From positions 1 through 64,000 of the forward strand of contig JAPLDJ010000020.1 in assembly GCA_026391805.1 (NCBI GenBank): a DNA stretch of 64,000 nucleotides, in the 5' to 3' direction. This document shows positions 37,676 through 52,289 of the stretch, piece by piece. Made by a program: the position numbers and the translations under genes. Under the pieces are notes generated by a model, which searched no databases, had not been told where the DNA came from, and saw only the letters and a list, made by a program, of their open reading frames with translations. Position 1 is the stretch's first letter; the number at the start of each line of letters is the position of its first letter. The DNA comes from Bacteroidota bacterium (lineage in GTDB: Bacteria; Bacteroidota; Bacteroidia; Bacteroidales; FEN-979).

Positions 37676-38683
37676 GTGGCTGAATCCAACTTTGTCGATT
37701 ATGTCAAGATATTCTGTGCTTCCGGTCACGGGGGCCCAGGTTCTGCGCATTTCCTGCGCACGCGCGGCGTTCCGCACGGAGGGCCGGATGGCGGCGACGG
37801 CGGCAGGGGAGGTCACATCATCCTGAAAGGGAACAAGCAGCTCTGGACGCTGATCCATCTTAAATATACACGTCACCTCAGGGCAGAACATGGCGAAAAT
37901 GGTGCTAAGCAGCTCCGGCATGGCGCCAACGGCGATGACGTGATCATTGAAGTTCCTCTTGGAACGGTCGCAAAGGATGCAGAAACCGGCCAGTATGAAT
38001 GTGAGATTACAGAGGACGGCCAGACGGTTATCCTTGTCCCCGGCGGCAGGGGCGGGCTCGGGAACGATCATTTCAAATCCGCTACCTTTCAGTCGCCGAA
38101 GTTTGCCCAGCCGGGCGAAGAGGGGATCGAAACCTGGAAGATCCTGGAATTAAAGCTGCTCGCCGATGTCGGGCTGGTGGGATTTCCCAATGCGGGTAAA
38201 TCAACTTTGCTGTCTGTCATATCAGCCGCCAAACCGCAGATTGCCGATTATCCCTTCACCACGCTGGTACCGAACCTTGGAATTGTTCCCTTCACCGGAA
38301 AGCGGTCGTTCGTTATGGCCGATATCCCGGGGATCATTGAAGGTGCGCATGAAGGAAGAGGCCTCGGGCTCAGGTTTTTACGGCACATTGAACGGAATTC
38401 CCTCCTGCTGTTCATGATCCCGGTCGACAGCAACGATATCCAGAAGGAATACCAGGTCCTGCTGAATGAACTGAAGCAGTTTAATCCCGAACTCCTTGAT
38501 AAGACAAGGGTTCTTGCAATAACCAAAGCTGATCTGGCCGATGCCGAGCTGACGCAGGAATTAAAAAAGGAGCTTCCGGATGTTCCGTCGATCTTTATCT
38601 CTTCCCACAAGAAACTCGGGCTGAACAAGCTGAAGAGCATGCTCTGGGATGAACTAAACCGAATCAATTCCGACTTCAGTTGA
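37676..38683 (+). CDS. obg: Obg-family GTPase
   Basis: 335 residues from a GTG start. Glycine-rich Obg domain 1-158 ([16 protein letters not shown]), then the GTPase domain: G1 [10 protein letters not shown]3 [10 protein letters not shown]4 TKAD. Obg acts in 50S ribosome maturation and stringent-response signalling. No C-terminal OCT domain. The next gene's TTG start overlaps its stop codon. Confidence 0.95.
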
Positions 38684-39243
38684 TTTCCTTTCTTGATCAT
38701 ATCGACCGGACCTTTTTTCTTTTCCTGAACGGGTTTCACAATCCCTTTTTCGACCGGATCATGTATGATGGAACAAAATCCCTGATCTGGCTCCCGTTAT
38801 ACTTGTTTTTTCTTTTCCTGGTGATCCGGAAATACAAATGGAATACGTTTCTGATCATTGTCCTCACGGCACTGATGATCCTCGTCAGCGATCAGCTTTC
38901 AAATGTGGTAAAGGATTCGGTCCAGCGGCTGCGCCCGTCACACCAGCCCGGAATGCTTATTCATATCGTTGATGCATACAAAGGCGGAATGTTTGGTTTC
39001 TATTCAGCCCATGCCTCCAATACATTTTCGGTCGCCATTTTCGTGATCCTTCTTCTTGGAAGAAAATGGTATGTGATCCTGCCGGTCCTTCTCTGGTCGG
39101 TCTTTATGTCCTATACACGGATCTACCTCGGGGTTCATTATCCGGGGGATATTCTCTGCGGATGGATTGCGGGAGGAATAATTGGTTTTCTTTTCTGGAA
39201 AGGGGCAGCAGTATCAATAAATTTAATAAGAAAGAAAAGCTGA
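38680..39243 (+). CDS. PAP2-family membrane phosphatase
   Basis: 187 residues from a TTG that overlaps the obg stop (TTGA), which suggests coupled translation. Five or six membrane helices. The three PAP2 motifs are present in variant form: [11 protein letters not shown] (KxxxxxxRP), SAHAS (for PSGH), and [12 protein letters not shown] (SRxxxxxHxxxD). Members dephosphorylate undecaprenyl diphosphate or lipid A; which one cannot be told. Confidence 0.87.
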
Positions 39244-39248
39244 TTTCC

Positions 39249-39414
39249 TTTTTCCTGTACTTTTCTTTTGCGTATCTAAAAAGGCATCGATTTCCTTTTG
39301 AATTTTTACAAAAAATTTCTCTGTGTAACTCTGTGTCTTCTCAGTGAACCTCCGTGTAATAAATTATTTGTTTCACAGAGAACCACAGAGTCGACACGGA
39401 GGCTCACAGAGAAA
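39249..39414 (+). repeat. Composite palindromic repeat, copy A
   Basis: Homologous to 44117-44287. It opens with TCCTGTACTTTTCTTTTGC, shared exactly with copy B, and continues to a long imperfect palindrome built from CTCTGTGT motifs on the left and CACAGAG motifs on the right, around an AT-rich loop. Directly downstream (3') of the minus-strand gene 39692-40750. The interval 39244-39691 contains no gene: only this repeat, a nested hairpin and a G-rich repeat. Confidence 0.85.
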
Positions 39415-39484
39415 GAATTTCGTTATCTGGCGCGTGCCAACCTTCAACGTTTTTATTGATCTGCCTTCAGGCCGGGCGGGCCTC

Positions 39485-39560
39485 GTCGCCGCAACGCAGC
39501 TGCGCCTGGGATAATCTCACTCCGTTCGATTACCCCAGCCAAGGTTGCTTATGCGGCGAC
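39485..39560. other. Nested double hairpin of unknown function
   Basis: Outer perfect 9-bp stem GTCGCCGCA/TGCGGCGAC encloses an inner stem CTGGGATAATC/GATTACCCCAG (10 of 11 paired) with an 11-nt loop, plus a GCAGCTGC palindrome on the left side. GC-rich compared with flanks. No ORF. Could be a small structured RNA or a remnant mobile-element end. Confidence 0.55.
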
Positions 39561-39640
39561 TGTAATTGTACTATTCGTTGCTGACCACAGCCGGTTTTCC
39601 AAGAACAAAAACCGTCTCTTGAATTTTATGGGAGAAAATC

Positions 39641-39680
39641 GAAACCTCTCCCCGGGTGGGGAGGGGCCGGGGGTGGGGCT
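39641..39680 (+). repeat. G-rich dispersed repeat, copy A
   Basis: CTCCCCGGGTGGGGAGGGG followed by a GGGGGTGGGG run. Homologous to 44343-44380 and, more loosely, 57094-57130. The first part can fold as a hairpin. It ends 11 nt before the stop of the minus-strand gene at 39692. Confidence 0.75.
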
Positions 39681-39691
39681 GTTGATGGGGA

Positions 39692-40750
39692 TCAAAATGA
39701 AACCCCTAAAACCAATCCTAAAGTAAGAAAGGTAAGAGATGGAGGATAGTCACTGTAAATAGATCCATTATTATAATATATTAATCGTTTATATGAAAAT
39801 TCAATTGCAGGAAGGATAGCCAGGCCATTGTGTATATATATTTTTGTTCCGAAACCGGTTGAAAGATAAGGACCGATTTTAGAAGGTATTTCGATCGGAA
39901 CAGTCACATATTGCTGAGTATACGACGCGTAATACTCAATTTGCGCAATATCTTGATGATACACCAGGATTAGTCCAAGATCCAGATAATAAAACGGAGA
40001 AACTTTTTTCAAAGCCCAGTCAGACCTGAAATCTAAGAAAACCGGGAAAAATCCGACCGTTCCTCCATAATTATAAGTTGAGGGTCCAAAATTATCGTAA
40101 CCATTACCGCCGTAATATACGAACGAAATTCTTCCGGATTTCATCTGACAGAATCCCGCTCCGAGCCCCATACTGAACCGGGGTGAAAACCGGTATCCGC
40201 AAATTGTACTGATGGAATTTAACGGGTAATAACCATCTGCATTAATAAGGTCTTTTTTATCCGTTGAACTAAATGAAGTATAGTTAGTTGCAATCATTCC
40301 GACACTGATCAGCCCAACCTGTGTAACGTTATAGAAACCTCTTATTTTTGGCACATAACTGTATAGCTTCGTATGTACTTTCTTGGTAAGAAGAGGGTCT
40401 GTTGACGATCTTTCTTTTACAATCATACTATCAGCATTTATCTTGCCGGTATATTTCCATCTTTTTTTTACAGTAATTTCTTTACGGATGGAGTCGGAAT
40501 CGGTTTTCATGGCAATTGAATGAACACCGGGTTTGATGCCCCAAATCTTAATTAAATTGAACTTTTTGATGCTGAATATGTATTTGTCATCATAATAAAG
40601 CTTCCCCGAATTTTGTGTTATAACCATAATTGTTCCTGACCTATACAAGTGTTGATTAGGAGCTTTATGGGTTTTGGCCGTATCTGTTTGCGCAGCTATG
40701 GAAAGAACATTTACAAACAGAAGAAATATGATAAAAAGAATGCGTTTCAT
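39692..40750 (-). CDS. Secreted beta-barrel-like protein, unknown
   Basis: 352 residues with a signal peptide (about 1-20, ending AAQ). The N-terminal 130 residues resemble a small beta-sandwich (SGTIMVITQNSGKLYYDD, GIKPGVHSIAM), then an aromatic-rich region of alternating strands ends LGLVLGVSF with a C-terminal Phe, the usual outer-membrane barrel ending. Not clearly related to the two neighbouring barrels. Separate from gene 40836-42098 by 85 nt, so one transcript is possible. Function unknown. Confidence 0.65.
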   Translation of the reverse strand: MKRILFIIFLLFVNVLSIAAQTDTAKTHKAPNQHLYRSGTIMVITQNSGKLYYDDKYIFSIKKFNLIKIWGIKPGVHSIAMKTDSDSIRKEITVKKRWKYTGKINADSMIVKERSSTDPLLTKKVHTKLYSYVPKIRGFYNVTQVGLISVGMIATNYTSFSSTDKKDLINADGYYPLNSISTICGYRFSPRFSMGLGAGFCQMKSGRISFVYYGGNGYDNFGPSTYNYGGTVGFFPVFLDFRSDWALKKVSPFYYLDLGLILVYHQDIAQIEYYASYTQQYVTVPIEIPSKIGPYLSTGFGTKIYIHNGLAILPAIEFSYKRLIYYNNGSIYSDYPPSLTFLTLGLVLGVSF

Positions 40751-40835
40751 TTTCGACAGGTCTTTAGGGTGAAAATGTTTAATGTTTGTTTACGGCTTTT
40801 TAGCTTATATTCGTAAATCAATTTCTACAGCAAGG

Positions 40836-42098
40836 TTATTCATGTTTCTTTTTACCCGCGAACCTATAGCTTAAGCCGGCACTCACTATTCCGGTGAATC
40901 CGTATCCGAATTCAGCAAACCCTCCGAAAGCACGACCGACCCGCAATCCTATCAATGTGACCTGGAATGCAGGTCTTTTAAGGATCTCTGTGGATTTATA
41001 TATCGGACTGACCCCTGTGTATGCATCAATGCTAATTCCTACGCCAAGCCTGGAGTATAGGCGGATAAAGGGTTTATTGATATAGGTGAGTTGAACTGTG
41101 GCAATTCCTGTGAACAGCTGATCTTCTGAATTGACTGCCCAGATCGTATCCTGATGATTATAGTTAATACTTTCTGTTCCTCCATAGTGAAAATCCTCAT
41201 ATCCTAAATCACATCCCACTGAAAACACATTATTAAGTGTCCGTAAATAACCTAAGTGGAAGGAGCCGGAGGATTGAGGATTGTCAAAATTATATCTGGA
41301 TCCAGCACCACTTTTACCTACATCGTGATAGACCGAGAGAATCCCGTAACCGGCATAGAGATCATTGTATTTCACTGCCGGGGAGTGAACTGAGAAGACT
41401 TTCACCGTTGTATCGGCCCGATGTTTTCTTTCTTTTTGCTGCGTGAACTTATAGCTTAACCCGGCATTGACAATCCCCAGAGTCCCCGCCCCCAGTTCCA
41501 GGAATCCTCCGAAATCCCGGCCGAAGCGAAATCCAACAAAAGTTAGCTGACAGGCCGGATATCCGACGTTTTTAACGGAATGTTCACCATTGTAAGTTAA
41601 CGTGCCCAGGTCCAAAGTAACACCTAACCAGATTGCGGAATAGATTGAAAATTTCGGCTTATTATGGTAATGAAAAGTAACCTTGGTTATTCCAGTGATC
41701 AATCTGTCGTCAAAATTTCCGGAATAGGTTGTCCATTTATAGTCGGAATATGTGAATCTGGCAACATTCCCTGTATAGCTGAACTTTTGATAACCAATCA
41801 CGATGCCCATAGAAACCACCTTGCTGAATTTCCTTGAATAACCAATATAAATGGTTCCAAGTGACTCTGGATTTGAATAGGGATTTCCAATCAGCCATAA
41901 TTGAGATGATTGATAAGGATGGGATAACCTTCCAAGAAAATAATAAACTGATGCTGCCCCGTAACCGCCGTAGATTTCATTTTTCAGCATTGACTGGTTT
42001 GGCTTGGTGCTCGTCGTTACAGTGCTATCGATCTTCTGAGAAAAGGAGAATGTATGAGCCAGCATGAAAATAAAAAGAAGGACGAACAGCTTTTTCAT
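40836..42098 (-). CDS. Tandem-duplicated outer-membrane beta-barrel-like protein
   Basis: 420 residues with a signal peptide (about 1-20, FSFSQ). Two homologous halves: NEIYGGYGAASVYYF to GIVNAGLSYKF (about 40-215), and NDLYAGYGILSVYHD to GIVSAGLSYRF (about 235-413). Each half matches the whole of the 225-residue protein at 44392-45069. Each repeat holds glycine- and aromatic-rich strands plus an FGRDFGGF/VGRAFGGF motif. Probably two small barrels or one double-size barrel. Function unknown. Confidence 0.7.
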   Translation of the reverse strand: MKKLFVLLFIFMLAHTFSFSQKIDSTVTTSTKPNQSMLKNEIYGGYGAASVYYFLGRLSHPYQSSQLWLIGNPYSNPESLGTIYIGYSRKFSKVVSMGIVIGYQKFSYTGNVARFTYSDYKWTTYSGNFDDRLITGITKVTFHYHNKPKFSIYSAIWLGVTLDLGTLTYNGEHSVKNVGYPACQLTFVGFRFGRDFGGFLELGAGTLGIVNAGLSYKFTQQKERKHRADTTVKVFSVHSPAVKYNDLYAGYGILSVYHDVGKSGAGSRYNFDNPQSSGSFHLGYLRTLNNVFSVGCDLGYEDFHYGGTESINYNHQDTIWAVNSEDQLFTGIATVQLTYINKPFIRLYSRLGVGISIDAYTGVSPIYKSTEILKRPAFQVTLIGLRVGRAFGGFAEFGYGFTGIVSAGLSYRFAGKKKHE

Positions 42099-42147
42099 AG
42101 TACCAGCTTAATATGCAAAAAAGGGAGATGTTGAACAATAATGCCAA

Positions 42148-42963
42148 TTACTCAGAAATGATAAAATCATTCCGTAACTTTTTATTATTAAAATACAGAA
42201 GATATAGGAATTTTGTTAATGTCATCCAGGTATATACGCCAGATTCTCTGCTCCCTTTTTCAATGGGTTCAAAGTTTCCGTTTTTTTCTAGATTTTTTAA
42301 CGACCTTTTTATATTATCCAATCCTTCAATGAGTGCATTATGACTTATCCAACTCCACGTTCTGTAATCTTCTCCGTATTTTCGTGTATAGGTTTCCTGA
42401 ACCAAAATTTCACCTCCGTCGATATCATTATTCGCCTTGAATAATGTGTAGCCGACAGATTTATAATCTTTTTTCAATAAAGCCCATAAAGTGGTGTGCA
42501 GTCCTTTGTATTCCGGAGTTAATCCTTCGTGGAGAATGAAGGTCCCGTATTTCGGGATGCTTGTCAGATCAGGTTTGAATATTACACTGCAACACAAACT
42601 GAAAATAATATCCGGAGAAGATTGTTTAATGAAATTTATCCACCCGGCATCATGAATATTTTCAACCGTATAGGAAGGGAAAGGTAATTCGACCTTGGTA
42701 TTGAAATATTCTGGTTGGGAATTTTTAAATGTTATTTCAGGTTTTCTGAGAAAAAGTCTGTCGAAAAGATGAAAAGCAAGCTCATCTATAACCTTCAGTA
42801 ACCCATATTTTCTTAACCTTTTTCCTATTCTTTTGCACTTATCTTTTGCGTTTTTTCTGCCGGGTTCCAGAAAGAGACAGTACAATACTTCATGATCCTC
42901 CGAAATTTCCGTGAAAAATTTCCTGTTAAAACTGTTATCCCTCCCTGCAAATACTATCCTCAT
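42148..42963 (-). CDS. Formyltransferase-like protein lacking the catalytic Asn
   Basis: 271 residues. The N-terminus (MRIVFAGRDN) and the LHEGLTPEYKGLHTTLWALL segment match the formyl-transferase fold of methionyl-tRNA and sugar N-formyltransferases. Family catalysis uses Asn, His and Asp in an NxH...D arrangement. Here His145 and Asp182 (DIDGGEI) remain, but the Asn position is Ile143. The C-terminus is unlike Fmt. It lies 24 nt after a radical SAM gene on the same strand. A different acyl donor, altered chemistry or loss of activity are all possible. Confidence 0.75.
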   Translation of the reverse strand: MRIVFAGRDNSFNRKFFTEISEDHEVLYCLFLEPGRKNAKDKCKRIGKRLRKYGLLKVIDELAFHLFDRLFLRKPEITFKNSQPEYFNTKVELPFPSYTVENIHDAGWINFIKQSSPDIIFSLCCSVIFKPDLTSIPKYGTFILHEGLTPEYKGLHTTLWALLKKDYKSVGYTLFKANNDIDGGEILVQETYTRKYGEDYRTWSWISHNALIEGLDNIKRSLKNLEKNGNFEPIEKGSRESGVYTWMTLTKFLYLLYFNNKKLRNDFIISE

Positions 42964-42987
42964 TGGGAATTATTTGTGAGTCGTCAT

Positions 42988-44043
42988 TTAACAACCTTTA
43001 CATCCCTTACATGTTGGTAATAATTCTGTTTTCCTATACCTGTGTCCTGTGCGATATTGTCGGAAAAGTGATCCCTGCCAGATTTCATTGATGGAATTGT
43101 CATTGATATTTCCTGCGATCAATTTCTTTTCAACATTGAGCGAACTTCCTGATACCTGACATATGGGTACATCTCCATTGCTTCTTATCTGAATATTCCG
43201 GAAAGGCATTGAGCATTCAGGGTATTCTCCCGTGCTCATGGGCTTTGGAAGAAAAACATCTGAAGAATTATTTACCCCTTCTGTTTTCAAAACATATTGA
43301 GGCATAATTGTGTTCCCAAATTGTTTCCAGAACCGGATGCTTTCCCTTTCTGTCTTCCCCTTTTGTGATGGCCTTACCATCAAGCGTAGATTGATGTGAG
43401 ACGTTGATTTTAATTCCCTTTTAACCCGGTTTAATTCCGTCAGATTATGAATGATCAGGTCATAATCGCTGCCAACTCTGGTTTTTTCGAAGTCTTCCCT
43501 TGTTCCCGCCTCAACCGAAAACTCAATAAAATCAACTGGTGCACTTAGCAAGGAGTAGGAAATTTCCTGACCCTTCCAATGTCCGTTGGTTACAATGGTC
43601 AGGATCTTCGACACTTTGGCGAGCCTTGTAACATATTCATTAAACCGGGGATGAATTGTTGCTTCTCCGCCTCCGATACAAATCCTGTCGATTTTCGAAT
43701 TTTTTATTTGGGTAATCAGATTATTAAATGTTTCATCATCCATCATTTTACGGGGGAAAGGAAAATGCGGATTGTTGCAGTAGATGCATTTGAGGTTGCA
43801 GGCATCGGTGAATTCGATGTGCATGCTGGGCGGATAAAGGCTATCGTGGAACCGGAAAGGAAACCGCGTGATCAGAAGTCTTTTTAATGAGACATTTTTC
43901 CGGAGAGCTTTACTGAACAAGGCTCCATGCGATTTCCACCGGTACAGAATTTTGGACAATTGGTTTGTATTGTCCCAATAAGGGTTTTCGGGATTTTGGG
44001 CGTTGGGACTATCAGGAGTAAATCTCATAAATCCGGGTTTCAT
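42988..44043 (-). CDS. Radical SAM protein with SPASM-like C-terminus
   Basis: 351 residues. Radical SAM CxxxCxxC at Cys82, Cys86 and Cys89 (ACNLKCIYC), with GGGEATIHP nearby for SAM binding. Five further cysteines in the C-terminus (about 277, 295, 345, 348 and 351), the last three in TCKGCKGC at the very end, indicate an auxiliary iron-sulfur cluster of SPASM/twitch type. Such enzymes modify peptides or carry out sugar and nucleoside chemistry. No precursor peptide is evident nearby. Shares a transcript with the formyltransferase-like gene. Confidence 0.85.
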   Translation of the reverse strand: MKPGFMRFTPDSPNAQNPENPYWDNTNQLSKILYRWKSHGALFSKALRKNVSLKRLLITRFPFRFHDSLYPPSMHIEFTDACNLKCIYCNNPHFPFPRKMMDDETFNNLITQIKNSKIDRICIGGGEATIHPRFNEYVTRLAKVSKILTIVTNGHWKGQEISYSLLSAPVDFIEFSVEAGTREDFEKTRVGSDYDLIIHNLTELNRVKRELKSTSHINLRLMVRPSQKGKTERESIRFWKQFGNTIMPQYVLKTEGVNNSSDVFLPKPMSTGEYPECSMPFRNIQIRSNGDVPICQVSGSSLNVEKKLIAGNINDNSINEIWQGSLFRQYRTGHRYRKTELLPTCKGCKGC

Positions 44044-44116
44044 TATCTAATACACCTGAATATGATCTTACCCTTATGTGGTTTGCGGAAATAATTTGAC
44101 GGGCGATATGTTTTAT

Positions 44117-44287
44117 TTTTTCCTGTACTTTTCTTTTGCTTGTCTGGAAGGGTATCGTAGTCCCTTCCCTGTCTGAATTTTTCAAAAAAATATCTCTGTG
44201 TAACTCTGTGTCTTCTCAGTGAACCTCTGTGAAACAATTTTTTATTACACAGAGAACCACAGAGTAGACACAGAGGCTCACAGAGAA
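44117..44287 (+). repeat. Composite palindromic repeat, copy B
   Basis: Second copy of 39249-39414: same opening and same CTCTGTGT/CACAGAG palindrome, with a slightly longer centre. It lies downstream of the minus-strand gene at 44392. The whole 44044-44391 gap has no gene; an 89-codon frame across the palindrome is repeat-derived. Confidence 0.85.
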
Positions 44288-44342
44288 AAAATATCTTTTG
44301 GCTTGACCCCACTAAACTTTAATCCTGACTTCACGGAACCAA

Positions 44343-44380
44343 GACCCCTTCCCTGGGTGGGGAGGGGCAGGGGTGGGGCT
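44343..44380 (+). repeat. G-rich dispersed repeat, copy B
   Basis: CCTTCCCTGGGTGGGGAGGGG then a GGGTGGGG run; same order relative to the palindromic repeat as copy A, and 12 nt before the stop of the adjacent gene. Confidence 0.75.
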
Positions 44381-44391
44381 AAATGGGAGAT

Positions 44392-45069
44392 TTAATCCGC
44401 AAACTTGTAGCTTAGCCCGGCATTTACGATCCCGTAGGAACCGAAGCCGAATTCAATAAATCCTCCGAAAGCCCGTCCAAAACGCAGTCCCATTAAGGTA
44501 AGCTGGCCGCCCGGCCAGAGCCGGCGTTCGGTTTTGGTATCAATGTCACCGGAGGCTTTTCCGAAATCAATCGTGACCCCGATCCCGATCCCCGAGTACA
44601 TCCTGATGGTCGGCTTGTTCAGATAGGTGAAGGTGACGCGTGCAATGCCTGTCAGGAGCTGGTCGTCGGCATTGATTTTATACTCCGTAGTATCATAGGT
44701 GTTCAATTTGTAGGTCTCGGTGTACTTAATGTCCTGGTAACCGAACATGAATCCGACGGAAACCACCTTGTTCAGCGACCGGCCGAAACCCACGTAAAAA
44801 GTTCCCGGCGATTTTGTATCGGTGTAATCCGTATTATGATAGTAATTGCCATTGTAATATGTGGTCTCGGTCGGATAATCGGAACTGTGCCTCATCCTTC
44901 CTGTGAAATAAAAGATTGATAGCGCTCCGTAACCGCCATAAAATTCATTAGGCATATTCGATTGTGATTTCTTGGCGGGTGGTTTTGTTTCAGTGGTTAC
45001 GGCATTCTGCGCCTTTAAGCAGGGAAATGAAACCAGCAGAGCCAGCAGGATAATGAATGTCTTTTTCAT
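44392..45069 (-). CDS. Small outer-membrane beta-barrel-like protein
   Basis: 225 residues with a signal peptide (about 1-20, LKAQ). One repeat of the same barrel unit found twice in the 420-residue neighbour: NEFYGGYGALSIFYF at the start, FGRAFGGFIEFGFG and GIVNAGLSYKF at the end. The C-terminal aromatic pattern suits an outer-membrane strand. Function unknown. It is followed 3' by the composite repeat and preceded 5' by the RND permease gene's 3' end. Confidence 0.7.
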   Translation of the reverse strand: MKKTFIILLALLVSFPCLKAQNAVTTETKPPAKKSQSNMPNEFYGGYGALSIFYFTGRMRHSSDYPTETTYYNGNYYHNTDYTDTKSPGTFYVGFGRSLNKVVSVGFMFGYQDIKYTETYKLNTYDTTEYKINADDQLLTGIARVTFTYLNKPTIRMYSGIGIGVTIDFGKASGDIDTKTERRLWPGGQLTLMGLRFGRAFGGFIEFGFGSYGIVNAGLSYKFAD

Positions 45070-45133: not shown

Positions 45134-48100
45134 TCAATACACGGATGATTTTTTAAACAAAAAGCGCAGAAAAGATGGAAATACGAAAAGGAGAAGCGGC
45201 ATTGCAATAATGAACCCGCCGATGACGGCAATGGCCAGCGGCTGCTGCATCTGGGCGCCAACGCCGAAGCCCAGCGCGAGCGGAGAGAGCGCAAGTATGG
45301 CCCCTATGGCCGTCATCAGCTTGGGCCGGATCCGGAGCGAAATGGCATACCGGATCGATGCATCAACATCGCCGGTTTGTTTCAGTGTAACCAGGAACTG
45401 GTTGACTGTGAAAATGGCATTCTCGGCAATGATCCCGACGATCATGATGATGCCGGTATAGCTGGCCACATTCAGCTGGATCCCGGTCAGGTAGATCGCC
45501 CAGACACTGCCGCCGATGCCGGCAATGGAGATGAAAATGACCAGCAACGAGATCCGGAGGTTCCTGAAGAGGAAAAGCAGGACAGCAAACACCAGCAGGA
45601 TGGCTGTAATGAGGATCAGGAGCAATTCGCTGAAGGAAGACTGCTGCTGGGCATAGGTCCCGCCTAAGACGATGTAGGAACCCTGCGGCAGGTGAACATT
45701 TTTCCGGATCATTTCCTTTATCTCCGAAATCGCGCCGCCCAGGTCCCGGTTCTCCAGCCGGGCCGTTACAACGACATTGGATTTCAGGTCTTCGCGGGTA
45801 ATGTCCGGATCGCCGGCCGATACTTCGGCCTTCGCAAACCAGGAAAGCGGTCTGTACCTTCCGTCCGGCGAAAAGATCATCTGCCGTTTGATCCTTTCAA
45901 GGTCATTCTCTTTGAAATTCGTGAAGCGCATCAGGATCCTCAGCATCTGCTCTCCTTCCTGGACCTGGCCAACCTCGACGCCTTCATTGCAGGCTTTGAT
46001 CTGTTCCTGGAAATCTGCCGGCGACAAGCCGAATTGCGCCAGCAGGGAAGGATTCGGCACGATGGTGATGGTGGGGCCGTCGACGATGATCCCGCTCTGG
46101 ACGTCTGCAACGCCCGGGATCTTTTGCAGAACGGCCTTTGTCTGGTAAGCTACCGTTCTAAGTTTTTCAAGATCATCCCCGAATATTTTCACCTCCACCG
46201 GTTCGGGCCTGCCGATCAGGTCGCCGAGGAGATCTGCAATTCGTTGTCCGAATTCAATATTGAGGGCCGGCTCTTTTGATCCGACCTGATCCCTCAGTTC
46301 GGAGATCACCTCTTCGGTTTTCTTTTTTGTGCCGGGCTTCAGCTGGATCAGGTAATCGCCTTCGTTCGGGGGGATGACGCCGGATGCCATGCTGATGCTG
46401 GAGGCCATGTTGGTTCCCGTGCGCCGCATGTAGGTAGTCACATCGGGATGTTTCATCACGATGGTGTCCACCTGCCGGAGGATGGCTTCGGAAGCATTCA
46501 GGGATGTCCCGGGAGGTGAAAGATAGTCCAGCACGATCGTGCCTTCATCGAGAACCGGAAGGAACCCGGTCTTCAGCTGGTTGATCATGAAGGCGGAAGA
46601 AATAATCAGAGCCACAACGAAACCCAGCGCATAGAAGGGTTTGTCGAAGAACCAGACCAGCCATGACAGGCGGTGACTTTTCCCGGTCACGGTCTCCCGG
46701 GTCAGGAATGCAAGCTTGCGGTGCGGCTTGTAACCGAACAGGAGGTGCAGCGCAGGCATGCCGATCCAGGTGGCAAGAAAAGAGCAGACAAGCGTGATCT
46801 CCATCGTCAGCGTCAGCTCTCTGAAAAAGCTTCCGGCCACACCGCTCATCATGACGAACGGAAAGAAAATGACGATGGTGCTTAACGAAGAACCGATCAT
46901 GGCCGGGAACAGCATTTTTATGGTTCCTTTTACCACCGCATGTTTATCCTGTTCAGGGTTTTCCTCATGGCTCCGGTGGATCTGTTCGATGACAACGATG
47001 GCATCGTCGATAATCAGCCCGATGGCTGCTGCGATAGCTCCAAGCGACATGATGTTCAGCGTAATCCCGAACAGGTAAAGAACGGTAAAGGTGAGCGCCA
47101 GCGTGACCGGGATGATCAGGATCACGTTCAGGCTGGCCCGGAAGGAGCGGAGAAACAGGATCACCACGAAGATCGCAAGGATCAGCCCGATGTAAATGCA
47201 TTCAAGCACGCTGCCGATCGACCTCGAAACAAAGGCCGACTGGTCATAATAGGGCCTCAGGTGAACCCCCTGCGGCAACTGACGCTGGATCTCCTTGGCC
47301 TTTTGCTTTACATTTTCAGCGAAATCGATGAGGTTGATTCCCTGTTGTTTCACAAGGTCGATGATGACCGCATCGCGGCCGTTGGCGTTGATCCGTATGA
47401 ACTCCTGCTGCTCCTCCAGCGTCACTTTGGAAATGTCCGATATCCGGATGATCCGGTGCCCGTCGTTACGGATCACCACATTTTTCACTTCGTCAAGTGT
47501 CTTTATCCTCGAATCCGTAAGGGAAAGATAAAGCCGGCGGTAATCCGACAACAACCCGTTCGACTCGACGAAATTGGTGCTTCCCATGGCAGCCATCACC
47601 TGCTGTGGTGTTACCGAAAGACGGATCATCTGCTGCGGATCGGGGGTGATCACAAATTCCTTCGTTCTTCCGCCCCTCACAACGACATTGGAAACTCCCG
47701 GAACCATTGAAAAGAGAGGCCGGATCAGGTAAAGAGCGCTCTTTTTCAGCTCCACCTGGCCGAGATTTTCGCTTTCCACCGTGTACCCGATCACCGGGTA
47801 GATGTTCTGTCCCATGGCCTCCACCACGATATTGACAGAAGGAGGAAGCGTGTTCTTGATCTCTGCGATGCGTGATTCGAGCAGAATTTTTGCCTGCTGA
47901 ATGTCAAGGTCCCACTTGAAAAAAGCTTCGATGGTGCAGCTCCCGCGGTTCGTGCTGCTTCTGACCATTTCAATTCCGTTCACACGCTTGATCGCAATCT
48001 CGAGCGGCTTCGTCACCGTGATCATCATTTTATCTACCGGTTGTTCCCCGTTATCGGCAATCACAGTTATTTTAGGAAATACCACATCCGGGAAAAGCGA

Positions 48101-48202
48101 GGTCTGCATCCTCCGGTAAGAAAAAATCCCGAACAACAGTATCACCAGCAGGATGAACAGTATGGGCTTATGGAAGATCCGATAGTAGTGCTTTTCGGAC
48201 AT
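45134..48202 (-). CDS. RND-family efflux permease
   Basis: 1022 residues from the ATG at 48202 (a TTG two codons upstream is possible). Twelve membrane helices with two large periplasmic loops; helix 4 has IGLIIDDAIVVIEQ, where the DD pair drives proton coupling as in drug-type RND pumps. Transports drugs or other toxic compounds out of the cell, or metal ions; the substrate is not readable. It follows the adaptor gene 6 nt after its stop. The TolC gene is further upstream on the same strand. Confidence 0.93.
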   Translation of the reverse strand: MSEKHYYRIFHKPILFILLVILLFGIFSYRRMQTSLFPDVVFPKITVIADNGEQPVDKMMITVTKPLEIAIKRVNGIEMVRSSTNRGSCTIEAFFKWDLDIQQAKILLESRIAEIKNTLPPSVNIVVEAMGQNIYPVIGYTVESENLGQVELKKSALYLIRPLFSMVPGVSNVVVRGGRTKEFVITPDPQQMIRLSVTPQQVMAAMGSTNFVESNGLLSDYRRLYLSLTDSRIKTLDEVKNVVIRNDGHRIIRISDISKVTLEEQQEFIRINANGRDAVIIDLVKQQGINLIDFAENVKQKAKEIQRQLPQGVHLRPYYDQSAFVSRSIGSVLECIYIGLILAIFVVILFLRSFRASLNVILIIPVTLALTFTVLYLFGITLNIMSLGAIAAAIGLIIDDAIVVIEQIHRSHEENPEQDKHAVVKGTIKMLFPAMIGSSLSTIVIFFPFVMMSGVAGSFFRELTLTMEITLVCSFLATWIGMPALHLLFGYKPHRKLAFLTRETVTGKSHRLSWLVWFFDKPFYALGFVVALIISSAFMINQLKTGFLPVLDEGTIVLDYLSPPGTSLNASEAILRQVDTIVMKHPDVTTYMRRTGTNMASSISMASGVIPPNEGDYLIQLKPGTKKKTEEVISELRDQVGSKEPALNIEFGQRIADLLGDLIGRPEPVEVKIFGDDLEKLRTVAYQTKAVLQKIPGVADVQSGIIVDGPTITIVPNPSLLAQFGLSPADFQEQIKACNEGVEVGQVQEGEQMLRILMRFTNFKENDLERIKRQMIFSPDGRYRPLSWFAKAEVSAGDPDITREDLKSNVVVTARLENRDLGGAISEIKEMIRKNVHLPQGSYIVLGGTYAQQQSSFSELLLILITAILLVFAVLLFLFRNLRISLLVIFISIAGIGGSVWAIYLTGIQLNVASYTGIIMIVGIIAENAIFTVNQFLVTLKQTGDVDASIRYAISLRIRPKLMTAIGAILALSPLALGFGVGAQMQQPLAIAVIGGFIIAMPLLLFVFPSFLRFLFKKSSVY

Positions 48203-48208
48203 TGTCAA

Positions 48209-49132
48209 TTATTTCACTGTTTTAACCACACTTACAATCGCCGTATCTCCCAGCCCGAAATTTCCTGAGTTGAGAAACCGGTCGGTTGCTGAAAACACCG
48301 GTGTAGTGATCTCAACATCATCCCCGCTGGTCAGACCTGTGATTACAGGAACCTTTACGGCCATTGAATCGTTCACCAGCTTCATCACCCAGAAGTTTTT
48401 CATCACTTCATCGGCAAGAATGCAGGATTTGCTTAGCAGGGTCGCATGCGGGATGATCTTTTTCACAATCCGGATGTTTGCAATCAGGTTTTCGGGGAGA
48501 TTCCGGTTTTCGGCCGGCCGGATGATGAACCGCTGTGTCTGTGCCCCCGGTGTCATCGAAGGCAACCGCGACTGGATCGTGCCCCTGATCGAATGTCCGT
48601 CGGGCAGAACGATCTCGCAGGAAGACGAGATCTTTATCAGTGGTATGTTTTCATACGGCACATCCAGTAAAAAAACAAAGCTGGAAGGTACTGCAATCGT
48701 TGCCAGTTGCTCGCCTTCCTGGAGATAATCGCCGCGCGGATGATCAACGGTAAGGATGATCCCGTCGATGTTGGCTTTGATCGTTATCAGTCCGGAAAAG
48801 GAATAGGGATTCAATGAGTCATGCTGTAGGGCCGTGGATTCCTTTGTGCGGAGTTTGAACAGCACCTGGTTCCGGGTCGCCGCATCGCCGGGGTTAACAG
48901 AGATTTCCTCAACGTAAGCCGATACGGGTGACTTGATCAGCGATTTTGTCAGGAACGAGGAGGTTGCCGTCAGTTCCAGGTAATCCGACACATCGGCGGC
49001 ATGAATGCTTTCAACCGTCACCGGCACCTTGGGCCGGAGCTCCTTTTCCACCGGATCTTCCCCCGCCCCGCATCCTGAAAGCAGGAACAGAACCGGCAAT
49101 AATTTTAAAATACCAGATCGTCTGATCATCAT
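48209..49132 (-). CDS. RND periplasmic adaptor lipoprotein (membrane fusion protein)
   Basis: 307 residues. Lipobox LLSGC places acylated Cys21. Barrel-sandwich segments and a short helical hairpin follow, with EEISVNPGDAATRNQVLFKL and DHPRGDYLQEGEQLATI marking the biotinyl-lipoyl-like domain. It links the inner-membrane pump with TolC. 9 codons of Glu/Asp-rich sequence follow the lipobox. Starts 115 nt after the TolC gene's stop, across a 7-nt repeat array. Confidence 0.9.
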   Translation of the reverse strand: MMIRRSGILKLLPVLFLLSGCGAGEDPVEKELRPKVPVTVESIHAADVSDYLELTATSSFLTKSLIKSPVSAYVEEISVNPGDAATRNQVLFKLRTKESTALQHDSLNPYSFSGLITIKANIDGIILTVDHPRGDYLQEGEQLATIAVPSSFVFLLDVPYENIPLIKISSSCEIVLPDGHSIRGTIQSRLPSMTPGAQTQRFIIRPAENRNLPENLIANIRIVKKIIPHATLLSKSCILADEVMKNFWVMKLVNDSMAVKVPVITGLTSGDDVEITTPVFSATDRFLNSGNFGLGDTAIVSVVKTVK

Positions 49133-49162
49133 ACTTTATTTTTCAAAACTTATTTAGCCCAC

Positions 49163-49230
49163 ATCCCATATCCCATATCCCATATCCCATATCCCATATC
49201 CCAAATCCCATATCCCAAATCCCAAATCCC
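49163..49230 (+). repeat. Heptanucleotide array between TolC and adaptor genes
   Basis: Nine full 7-nt units (six ATCCCAT, three ATCCCAA) plus a partial tenth. The most regular of the 7-nt arrays in the window. It lies in the gap between two genes of one operon. Confidence 0.95.
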
Positions 49231-49247
49231 TCATAATTCCTGATTCA

Positions 49248-50492
49248 TCATTCATAATTCTTCCAGTAGCTGATCTCATTCCTTATCTGCAGTAACCTTA
49301 GCTCGTGCTGGTTCATAGTACGGCGTACGGAAAGATAATTCTTAACGACGAGAAGGTAATCGATGATGGTTCCTGCCCCTTGTCTCACCAACTCCCGCTG
49401 CTGGCTGACCAGCAGTTTTGAATTCCTGGTTAGCGACTGATCCAGCGGAAGAAGGGCGGAGGTCTCATCCAGTTCCCTGAGCAATTGCTGAATCCTCTGG
49501 TTATATTCCAGGTTAAATGCTGAAGCATAACCTGCCCTGCTCTCTTCTTCCGATTTCAGCTTCCGGAAGTTCAGTTTCCGCTGACTTCCGTCATACACCG
49601 GAACCGTAAAATTCAGCCCGATGCTGAATCCGAAATTCTGATAAATGACTGTCGGATCATTGTTGATAAGTCCGGCATCGGCGAACCAGTTGGTTGCGGG
49701 TTTATAGTTGCGGTTGATCAGGATCTGTTCATTCGCAATGCGGAGGCTGTCGATCCTGAACCGTTCGAAGAACGGGGAATGCCCCGGTTTGACAAGGGGT
49801 ATGTCCCCCAGGTCCGGCTTGACAGGAGTGATCGTGACGGTATCCGCGATCCCGCAAAGGAGGTTCAGTTCGGAGATCTTTCTCCTGTAAAGGATCTGCT
49901 GCTCGCGGAGCGACATCTCCTGGTCCTGCAAAACGATCATGAACAATAGGTAATCGGTTTGCCTGCAGAGGCCCTCTTCAGTCAGGGATTTCAGGATCTT
50001 TCCCTCTTCTTTTGCAAATGATATAAGTTCCCGGTCAAGCGTGATCTCCGTAAATGTTGAGTAGACCTCCAGGTAACTATCGGTGATTGACTTTTTCAGC
50101 TCCTTTTCTGCAAGACGCAGGGTGTTCGAGAGGGATTCGCTCTGAATGCCGGCTTTCAGCAGGTTGGCCTCCACCGTTCTTTTGTTGAAGATCGGCTGCG
50201 AAACGTTCATAACGGTAGTCAGGTTTGCAATGTTGGTGAGGATATCGCTGTAACCGTAATGGTTGACCACCGGTGCATAATATGCATATCCCCTGAACCC
50301 GACCTGGGGCTTGTTCAGCGCTTTGATCAGCAGGCTGTCAACCGAAGCCGAACGGACCTGGTTATGATAATCCCGGACCACCGGGCTGTTTTTCAGTCCC
50401 TGCTGAACATAATAATCCAGTTTCTTTTCCTGTGCTGTTCCGCAAAGGAAAGCAAATGAAAAAGAAAGGATCAGAATTATTCTACAGACCAT
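49248..50492 (-). CDS. TolC-family outer-membrane efflux protein
   Basis: 414 residues from the ATG at 50492; a TTG start three codons upstream is less likely. Signal peptide about 1-20 (GTAQ). Two repeats of paired long helices and barrel strands, the TolC pattern; helical segments are rich in Gln, Glu and Arg. It forms the exit duct for the pump encoded downstream on the same strand. Confidence 0.9.
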   Translation of the reverse strand: MVCRIILILSFSFAFLCGTAQEKKLDYYVQQGLKNSPVVRDYHNQVRSASVDSLLIKALNKPQVGFRGYAYYAPVVNHYGYSDILTNIANLTTVMNVSQPIFNKRTVEANLLKAGIQSESLSNTLRLAEKELKKSITDSYLEVYSTFTEITLDRELISFAKEEGKILKSLTEEGLCRQTDYLLFMIVLQDQEMSLREQQILYRRKISELNLLCGIADTVTITPVKPDLGDIPLVKPGHSPFFERFRIDSLRIANEQILINRNYKPATNWFADAGLINNDPTVIYQNFGFSIGLNFTVPVYDGSQRKLNFRKLKSEEESRAGYASAFNLEYNQRIQQLLRELDETSALLPLDQSLTRNSKLLVSQQRELVRQGAGTIIDYLLVVKNYLSVRRTMNQHELRLLQIRNEISYWKNYE

Positions 50493-50564
50493 ATGAATCA
50501 ATCATTCGATTAAAAGCAACCAGGAAAACCAACGAATAATTCACCAGGATTTTCTTGTATCCTA

Positions 50565-50572: not shown

Positions 50573-50728
50573 CAAGATCAGACCTGATATTAACATGATT
50601 TTTATGTAAAAGTTTCCGGGCTATGGATGATAACAATAAATCCGGCCATTTAATAGTATGAAGGCAAGGGGCGCACAAAAAAATCAAAAAATATTTTGTC
50701 TTGGGAAATAATATATGAGTTTATGCCT

Positions 50729-50736
50729 TATCTTTG
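50729..50736 (+). promoter_or_regulatory. Candidate -7 box (TATCTTTG) for the first gntR gene
   Basis: Lies inside a longer open frame that starts at 50696, which supports the downstream start codon for the regulator. No -33 box at standard spacing. Confidence 0.35.
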
Positions 50737-50848
50737 TGTGTCGGAATTTGACAATATAGCTGCTAAGGTTAATACTATTTCTTTCACTCCACCCCCTGGG
50801 AACAGCAAGTTCGTGGGTTACTTTTTATTTATGAATAAAGGCAGAGAC

Positions 50849-51508
50849 ATGGGATCCAAAGAAAAAAAATCAGTTACGCTTACAAACCAGATTGCAGAGA
50901 TCCTGAAGGACGAAATCAACTACGGAAAGATCAAACCCGGTGAAGCACTTATAGAACGTCAGTTAGCAGAACGTTTTAGTGCCAGTAATATCCCTGTCAG
51001 GGAAGCCCTACGCATCCTCGAAGGGAAAGGATTTATCGTTCACAGGAAATTTTCAGGATATACAGTGCGGGAAATCAATCCGGAAGAAATGGTTGAATTG
51101 TATGACATCAGCCAGTTCCTTTCATCACAGCTTCTTTCGAAGGGAATCCCCCGTTATACAGAACTGACCTATCATCGTTTCCGGAGCCTGATCGAAGCAA
51201 TGACAAAATCAACCGATACCGATAAAAGTGTATCACTGCTGATTGATTTTGCTGAAACAGCCTATGCCCCGGCCGGCCTGGACTATTCCATGGAACTTGC
51301 AAAACAGCTCCTGCACCGGAATATCCCGATCATCCAGGGAATGGTGGAAAGAATATACGGAGGAAAGATTCCCACCGATTTTCATAGAAAGTTTATGGAA
51401 CTATGCCAGAAAAAAGAGACTCAAAAAGCAACTCAGTGCTGGTTAGAAGAATTTGAAAAAATGACAAAGTCCTTCGTTACCATCATCAACCAATTAAAAA
51501 ATGAATAA
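50849..51508 (+). CDS. GntR-family regulator, first of a tandem pair
   Basis: 219 residues from the ATG at 50849, chosen because it aligns with the paralogue start, has AAAGG upstream, and follows a -7 box; ATG at 50831 is the alternative. Winged helix: LTNQIAEILKDEINYGKIKPG, then SNIPVREALRILEGKGFIVHRKFSGYTV. The C-terminal helical domain is FadR/FCD-like (about 90-219). No metabolic gene is adjacent, so the ligand and targets are unknown. Its paralogue follows after 124 nt. Confidence 0.85.
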   Translation: MGSKEKKSVTLTNQIAEILKDEINYGKIKPGEALIERQLAERFSASNIPVREALRILEGKGFIVHRKFSGYTVREINPEEMVELYDISQFLSSQLLSKGIPRYTELTYHRFRSLIEAMTKSTDTDKSVSLLIDFAETAYAPAGLDYSMELAKQLLHRNIPIIQGMVERIYGGKIPTDFHRKFMELCQKKETQKATQCWLEEFEKMTKSFVTIINQLKNE

Positions 51509-51632: not shown

Positions 51633-52289
51633 ATGAAAAAGAAAAAAGAATCCACAACATCGAACAAGATTGCAGATTCCCTGCGCGAGGAGATCAATTT
51701 TGGCAGGCTAAAACCCAGCGACAAGATCATTGAACGGGAGATTGCGGAAAAGTACAAGGCAAGCCATATTCCCGTAAGGGAAGCGCTGAGAATCCTTGAA
51801 GGGGAAGGATTCGTCATTCACCGGAAATTCGCGGGCTATACGGTCCGCGAGGTGAACCCGGAAGAGATGATCGAACTTTACAACATCATGAGGTTCCTGT
51901 GTGTTCAGTTGCTGACAAGGGCCATCCCGCGATATACGGAGATCACCTATTATCAGCTTAAATCAATTACGGCTGAAATGGAAAAAACCACCGATGCTGA
52001 AAAAAGCATCGATCTGCTGATGCAGTTTGCAGAAGTGATCTTTTTCCCGGCCGGGTTGAATTATACCTTCAACCTTGCAAAACAGTTTCTGAAAAGGAAC
52101 ATCCCCGTTTTACAAGGTGTCATCACAAAACCTTACAAAGGGACCATCCCGGTGACCCATTTCAATCATTTTATCGAATTGTGCCAGAAGCATGAGATTG
52201 AAAATGCCGTGAAATTCACGACGGAACAGTACGATAAGGTTACAAAGATGTTTGTCGCCTACATGAGTGAACTCAGGAAAGCATCCTGA
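51633..52289 (+). CDS. GntR-family regulator, second of a tandem pair
   Basis: 218 residues. Very similar to the preceding gene throughout: SHIPVREALRILEGEGFVIHRKF and the helical ligand domain PRYTEITYYQLKSI both match position by position. A local duplication that has since diverged, so the two may bind overlapping sites and answer to different ligands. It is followed by a convergent gene. Confidence 0.87.
   Translation: MKKKKESTTSNKIADSLREEINFGRLKPSDKIIEREIAEKYKASHIPVREALRILEGEGFVIHRKFAGYTVREVNPEEMIELYNIMRFLCVQLLTRAIPRYTEITYYQLKSITAEMEKTTDAEKSIDLLMQFAEVIFFPAGLNYTFNLAKQFLKRNIPVLQGVITKPYKGTIPVTHFNHFIELCQKHEIENAVKFTTEQYDKVTKMFVAYMSELRKAS

Follow-up and report, generated by a model that had tools for sequence, protein, structure and literature searches.

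Sugar N-formyltransferases carry an Asn-x-His motif together with an Asp. Departures from this triad are on record: the hydrolase domain of 10-formyltetrahydrofolate dehydrogenase (FDH) has Ile at the Asn position with the His and Asp kept, a change of that Ile to Asn cuts hydrolase activity to <10% (PMC4388273), and HypX likewise functions with a modified triad (PMC6802093). For radical SAM/SPASM enzymes, literature searches that combined them with O-antigen or polysaccharide biosynthesis yielded no paper recognized as pertinent, PMC6309461 proving irrelevant, and a search on sugar N-formyltransferases narrowed by further terms yielded no paper. A formyltransferase-like gene and a radical SAM/SPASM gene lie side by side in the DNA analyzed here, a stretch of 64,000 nucleotides (the window) from Bacteroidota bacterium (assembly GCA_026391805.1, contig JAPLDJ010000020.1, positions 1 to 64,000, forward strand). 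With two outer-membrane-type genes they make up a block of ~5.1 kb (~39.25-44.38 kb), four minus-strand genes between two composite repeats. With a probability of roughly 0.55, the block is an acquired islet of stray glycan-type enzymes and outer-membrane proteins that entered through recombination at mosaic repeats.

The probable insertion site and its repeats

To the left of the block lies a PAP2-type phosphatase gene (38680-39243, plus strand; PF01569, 2.3e-19), with copies of 58-73% identity in four same-genus genomes. To the right lies the gene for a 225-residue barrel protein (44392-45069, minus strand, stop codon at 44392), matched in 35/43 family genomes, own genome included, and beyond it a native RND (resistance-nodulation-division) efflux operon (45134-50501, minus strand) of pump, membrane-fusion and outer-membrane factors (PF00873, PF13437, PF02321). 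In three same-genus genomes (G001, G003 and G004) the PAP2 and barrel genes were 62, 27 and 130 bp apart, respectively, measured between match ends, and the order HPRT, Adk, Obg, PAP2, barrel, RND pump, fusion protein and outer-membrane factor was kept to the contig limits. None of the four block genes was found between PAP2 and barrel by tblastn of these syntenic stretches. The formyltransferase-like gene had no match at 1e-10 in 4/4 same-genus and 38/38 further family genomes, the 352-residue protein of the block had none at 1e-5 in 4/4 same-genus genomes, and the radical SAM gene had none in G002 at 1e-16 and was absent from the syntenic stretches compared in the other three. An earlier note on this DNA, made from the sequence alone, had suggested that the block was acquired. 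Far from being conserved in all close relatives, the block was missing from the syntenic locus of these three, with both flanks in place, and together with codon usage (below) this supports the suggestion well. Judged from the gene orders, the block would be an insertion in this genome, a reading that is well supported, with a shared loss in the relatives less likely.

In the fourth same-genus genome, G002, which gave no barrel relative at 1e-5, a 3.5-kb contig carries the PAP2 gene. Unrelated sequence flanks this PAP2 gene (L092, 1-1660), and the spacer may be an insertion hotspot; one frame beside the gene looks like a putative AbiEii-type nucleotidyltransferase. The spacers of G004 and G012 held other palindromic repeats, judged by eye.

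The block had been described as AT-richer than its neighbors, and this was borne out by GC of 0.36-0.46 in 1-kb windows against ~0.47-0.55 across the greater part of 30-38.5 kb and 45-50 kb, though 50-52.5 kb was likewise low (0.40-0.46). Codon usage was set against 37 other open reading frames chosen by hand, whose GC content at third codon positions (GC3) had a mean of 0.59, a standard deviation (sd) of 0.045 and a minimum of 0.435. This comparison with the flanks, proposed in the earlier note, found all four block genes atypical (z -5.8 to -9.8), with GC3 and z of 0.34 and -9.8 for the gene of the 352-residue protein, 0.43 and -6.4 for that of the 420-residue protein, 0.36 and -9.1 for the formyltransferase-like gene, and 0.44 and -5.8 for the radical SAM gene. 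Both neighbors were native-looking (225-residue barrel gene: GC3 0.588, z -0.98). Farther along the window, a GntR regulator gene at 50696-51508 was also low (GC3 0.435, z -3.35); it is AT-rich and stands next to a similar regulator gene at 51633-52289. Scans for promoter-like sites (23 against 14.9, sd 4.7) and terminator-like sites (9 against 5.9, sd 2.5) were not used as evidence.

Two composite repeats of the same order had been noted as bounding the block, and the alignments agree. On both flanks a leader is followed by the CTCTGTGT palindrome and a G-rich tail, all on the plus strand, with leader and palindrome at 39246-39424 and 44105-44298 and tails at 39637-39680 and 44337-44380. The left (39241-39424) and right (44109-44298) copies were 82% identical over 191 alignment columns, and the tails matched at 29/32 positions. 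The left copy carries ~210 bp without equivalent in the right one; this mosaic segment (39425-39636), which holds a GGCCGGGCGGGCC module, matched other leader sites of the same genome over 45 bp at 91% and 40 bp at 92.5%. The leader core was exact at 3 places in the genome, two of them the flanks, and 8 places had it with <=2 mismatches, while the strict G-rich string (<=1 mismatch) was found in the own genome at both flanks only. Other leader sites do carry related GGCCGGGCGGGCC and looser G-rich modules. At 28 palindrome loci elsewhere, which represent 21 of the 36 other places, the leader gave no match longer than 13 bases. On these alignments the ordered composite on both flanks is beyond chance, and the pair would be related and not freshly duplicated, the flanks having the build of mosaic intergenic repeats. 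The palindrome (39316-39414 and 44193-44287) is itself a dispersed genome-wide repeat, with at least 58 matches on both strands of the 3.89-Mb genome that merge to 38 places, a lower bound obtained with 40/53 candidates scored. Its close spacing alone means little, because 4 pairs of places <=4875 bp apart were observed, the block's pair included, against ~1.8 expected under simple random placement. MicroRNA-like Rfam matches in the repeats were sub-threshold and produced by the palindrome, and were dismissed.

The formyltransferase-like and radical SAM/SPASM enzymes

The formyltransferase-like gene (42148-42963, minus strand) matched the formyl transferase family PF00551 above its curated cut-off (8.8e-10; 39.1 against 26.1 bits). 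Alignment with ArnA and relatives placed Ile143 at the site of the catalytic Asn, with His145 and Asp182 retained, and the sugar N-formyltransferase motif is incomplete in the Asn. At the HxSLLP site the protein reads HEGLTP, Gly replacing the Ser of ArnA. In three intact close members the Asn position holds Ile, Val or Thr, and the broken copy in G786 has Val also; the absence of the Asn, which the earlier note had pointed out, is on these alignments real and common to close relatives.

A scan of genome contigs gave a relative of 57% identity (L038, taken as the same locus as G1023), and a class-level search with a two-row profile gave five relatives in 395 genomes, namely G1023, G769, G786 and the distant G233 and G887. 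The catalytic Asn is present in the two distant relatives, which lie near glycosyltransferases, with a Polysacc_deac_1 neighbor in G233 and a similar neighbor by eye in G887. The relative in G786 (L118, 4278-4960) is split into two frames and adjoins a hisS-like gene. G616, the sole other match of the order-level search, was set aside as an ordinary Fmt (271 bits against a cut-off of 201.5). The same-genus and family search returned six weak matches at 26-33% identity, five of them with frames of 320-342 residues, a length typical of Fmt; the weak match in G046 lies a few kb from the PAP2-Obg-Adk-HPRT genes of that genome. In phage and plasmid tblastn searches both enzymes of the block were matched by distant superfamily members only, the Azospirillum context was uninformative, and among the viral contig stretches that fitted the peptide patterns neither enzyme had a confirmed relative.

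The radical SAM/SPASM gene (42988-44043, minus strand) had been recognized as such, and it carries a CxxxCxxC motif and both domains above their cut-offs (radical SAM PF04055, 2.1e-17; SPASM PF13186, 1.1e-13). Relatives numbered four in 295 order-level genomes (1e-16) and one in 395 class-level genomes (two-row profile, 1e-25), whereas the phylum-level search (395 genomes with the own one counted, 1e-25) gave just the gene itself. Polysaccharide clusters house 3/5 of these relatives. The closest, in G908 (L116, 42% identity), shares its cluster with genes for a Polysacc_synt flippase, Wzy_C, a glycosyltransferase, DegT and an initiating sugar transferase. The next closest, in G573 (L099, 35% identity), is ended by a contig edge that puts its downstream genes out of view, and its neighbors include a flippase, a glycosyltransferase and a WbuX-type N-acetyl sugar amidotransferase above its cut-off. 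A distant relative in G606 adjoins MBOAT, GDSL and Polysacc_synt genes. A PADLOC match to viperin was confined to the radical SAM core (1.2e-12) and was rejected, the NCBIfam viperin score being 36.9 against a cut-off of 180.

The earlier note had proposed a surface-modification module built on the enzyme pair. Modification of a glycan is plausible, with three radical SAM relatives and two Asn-containing formyltransferase relatives in polysaccharide or glycosyltransferase contexts. The pair as a recurrent unit did not hold up: among the stretches put through tblastn comparison, those with a relative of one enzyme contained relatives neither of the other nor of the barrels. Occurrence in O-antigen clusters without barrels, which the earlier note had named as telling against its module, was found in part, for the radical SAM gene alone.

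Outer-membrane-type proteins and competing explanations

The 420-residue protein (40836-42098, minus strand) is made of two fused barrel repeats of the 225-residue family, as indicated by internal repeats, homology and a structural model. A barrel gene has here undergone duplication and in-frame fusion, the product being two barrels in tandem or, possibly, a single larger one. Its first half is 31-49% identical to 13 single barrels, and in the tree both halves grouped with the genus barrels and that of G012 (99/98), on long branches, that of the second half included. The model has two runs of 8 strands, with a predicted local distance difference test score (pLDDT) of 82-90 at residues 81-220, a poor second half and a predicted template modeling score of 0.51; long Foldseek alignments of it with a root-mean-square deviation (rmsd) of ~20 were disregarded. 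The 352-residue protein (39692-40750, minus strand) has a signal-like start and no Pfam match and is a suspected outer-membrane barrel. The three barrels had been placed in one family, which is right for the 420-residue protein, a fused double of the 225-residue one, but BLASTP put the 352-residue protein in a family other than that of these two. Its own relatives (352-type) were weak matches, at 26-32% identity, in 4/38 non-genus family genomes. That of G019 (L125) has a sub-threshold OMP_b-brl match and sits immediately downstream of an RND operon that has a pump of 70% identity to the window's (L125, 1261-2241 and 2463-3683). In G034 it is a barrel relative that lies directly upstream of an RND operon, with a pump 75% identical to the window's.

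The block could also be an ancestral family cassette that was lost from the sampled relatives, the AT-richness then reflecting relaxed selection. The doubled barrel does fall in the genus lineage, and distant 352-type proteins do occur in another family genus, one of them beside the orthologous RND operon, but this account requires clean loss in at least three same-genus genomes, has to accommodate a formyltransferase-like gene matched at 1e-10 in 0/42 genus and family genomes, and leaves all four genes codon-atypical where both neighbors are not. We consider it unlikely.

Some 352-type genes have radical SAM genes nearby. Downstream of those in G030 and G033 come a gene for a protein of ~567 residues without Pfam match and then a radical SAM gene, and the order of 352-type gene, 567-568-residue gene and radical SAM gene(s) was seen at L138 (7529-13181) and L137 (9651-13578), in two genomes of another family genus. 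In L137 the end of the radical SAM gene overlaps with a 1510-residue frame that by eye resembles a biosynthetic multidomain protein. The downstream radical SAM proteins of G030 and G033 are 46% identical to each other; that of G033 matched the window's at 21% over 117 residues, and that of G030 was not among the matches listed. A second radical SAM/SPASM gene just upstream of the 352-type gene in G033 is 24% identical to the window's. In G025 the 352-type gene is ended by a contig edge and adjoins a 571-residue gene resembling the 567-residue one.

The block might be a barrel-linked module, in which the enzymes modify the adjoining outer-membrane proteins or make a product that those bind or export. 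The four genes lie on one strand with gaps of 24, 49 and 85 bp (radical SAM to formyltransferase-like to 420-residue to 352-residue), their atypical codon usage is common to all, and G030 and G033 offer an echo of the barrel and radical SAM association drawn in the earlier note. The echo is partial, however, as the radical SAM genes there are of other families, matching the window's over part of the core at 21-24%, and the proximity may be coincidence. In the stretches compared, relatives of neither enzyme were accompanied by these barrels or by the other enzyme, and three of the five radical SAM relatives sit in glycan clusters. Because two of the four 352-type loci have radical SAM genes nearby, some barrel-radical SAM link is possible; as an account of the block this too is unlikely, though it is the main functional rival to the likelier reading, in which stray polysaccharide-type enzymes decorate a glycan. 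More speculative, and rather improbable, is that the 352-type family repeatedly partners varied radical SAM enzymes and does so here with an Asn-less formyltransferase-like subfamily, the islet bearing an undescribed formyl chemistry on a surface glycan or other acceptor.

Maturation of a short peptide by the radical SAM/SPASM enzyme, as in systems for ribosomally synthesized and post-translationally modified peptides, has in its favor the SPASM domain and a weak NCBIfam likeness to many peptide maturases but is very improbable, since 0/25 NCBIfam families listed reached the curated cut-off, the N-terminal region is common to the glycan-cluster relatives, the other gaps are just 24-85 bp, and the search for a precursor gene that had been suggested found, in 44044-44391, eight overlapping small frames, none convincing and several inside the repeats.

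Proposed origin and comparison with known systems

For the acquired islet, the proposed event is the insertion of ~5.1 kb, with four same-strand genes, into the short spacer between PAP2 and barrel, with related mosaic repeats on both sides. Because none of the four block genes belongs to an integrase or transposase family, we infer entry by recombination between the mosaic repeats; the block has no mobility gene of its own, which is not required of all islets. Route, donor and function are put forward as proposals. Both enzymes, kin by sequence to those of O-antigen and exopolysaccharide clusters, would probably decorate a sugar or cell-surface glycan. Going by its model, the formyltransferase-like enzyme would bind 10-formyltetrahydrofolate in an ArnA-like fold, and it may hydrolyze the formyl group or transfer this to some acceptor that is not a sugar amine. 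The outer-membrane-type pair would more likely be accessory barrels than targets of the enzymes.

Several observations weigh against this account. The flank repeats are just 82% identical and built from common modules, and each could have accumulated independently of the other. Among the five radical SAM relatives, two distant ones, in G091 and G592, adjoin AI-2E-type transporters, and the three close formyltransferase-like relatives (G1023, G769 and G786) lie outside polysaccharide clusters, by eye. Both halves of the 420-residue protein group with the genus barrel lineage, and the gene may stem from a close relative or a local duplication. The genome-wide same-genus search for the radical SAM gene covered one named genome, G002. 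Finally, 2/4 loci with 352-type genes also have radical SAM genes, of other families, nearby, which favors some working link between such proteins and radical SAM enzymes.

The islet looks to be mostly of a known kind, and its formyltransferase-like enzyme looks like an unusual variant. The block illustrates clearly how individual enzymes of polysaccharide type can leave their clusters and settle in an intergenic spacer full of repeats. It also draws attention to a small subfamily of formyltransferases whose active site is altered, and to the 352-type family of outer-membrane-type proteins, found more than once near radical SAM enzymes.

Compared with described elements, the repeats share with mosaic intergenic repeats of the REP/BIME type (repetitive extragenic palindromes and bacterial interspersed mosaic elements), a class name that we presume to apply, the dispersed palindromic copies made of modules recurring in this genome. 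Part of the 420-residue model matched 8-stranded OmpA/Ail barrels (Foldseek probability 1.00 over 178-212 columns), from which the protein differs as two fused barrel repeats with no Pfam match. The radical SAM/SPASM genes of the polysaccharide clusters in G908 and G573 have the N-terminal region and CxxxCxxC core in common with the gene here, which, unlike them, stands outside such a cluster, beside formyltransferase-like and outer-membrane-type genes.

The model of the formyltransferase-like protein (mean pLDDT 80.7) matched the folds of Fmt (1fmt; Z 16.8, rmsd 4.2, 215 aligned) and of the ArnA transformylase domain (4wkg; Z 16.7, rmsd 4.0, 211 aligned), and a predicted fold in common with these is no proof of function. 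It shares the His and Asp with ArnA and the sugar N-formyltransferases, and differs from them in ~40 additional residues, mostly helical, that precede the region of the match. From the 10-formyltetrahydrofolate hydrolase of FDH it differs in having neither the Ser of HxSLLP nor a dehydrogenase domain, and its sequence match to FDH was weaker than that to ArnA (1e-6 against 2e-9); with that hydrolase, as described in the source cited above, it shares the Ile two residues ahead of the catalytic His.

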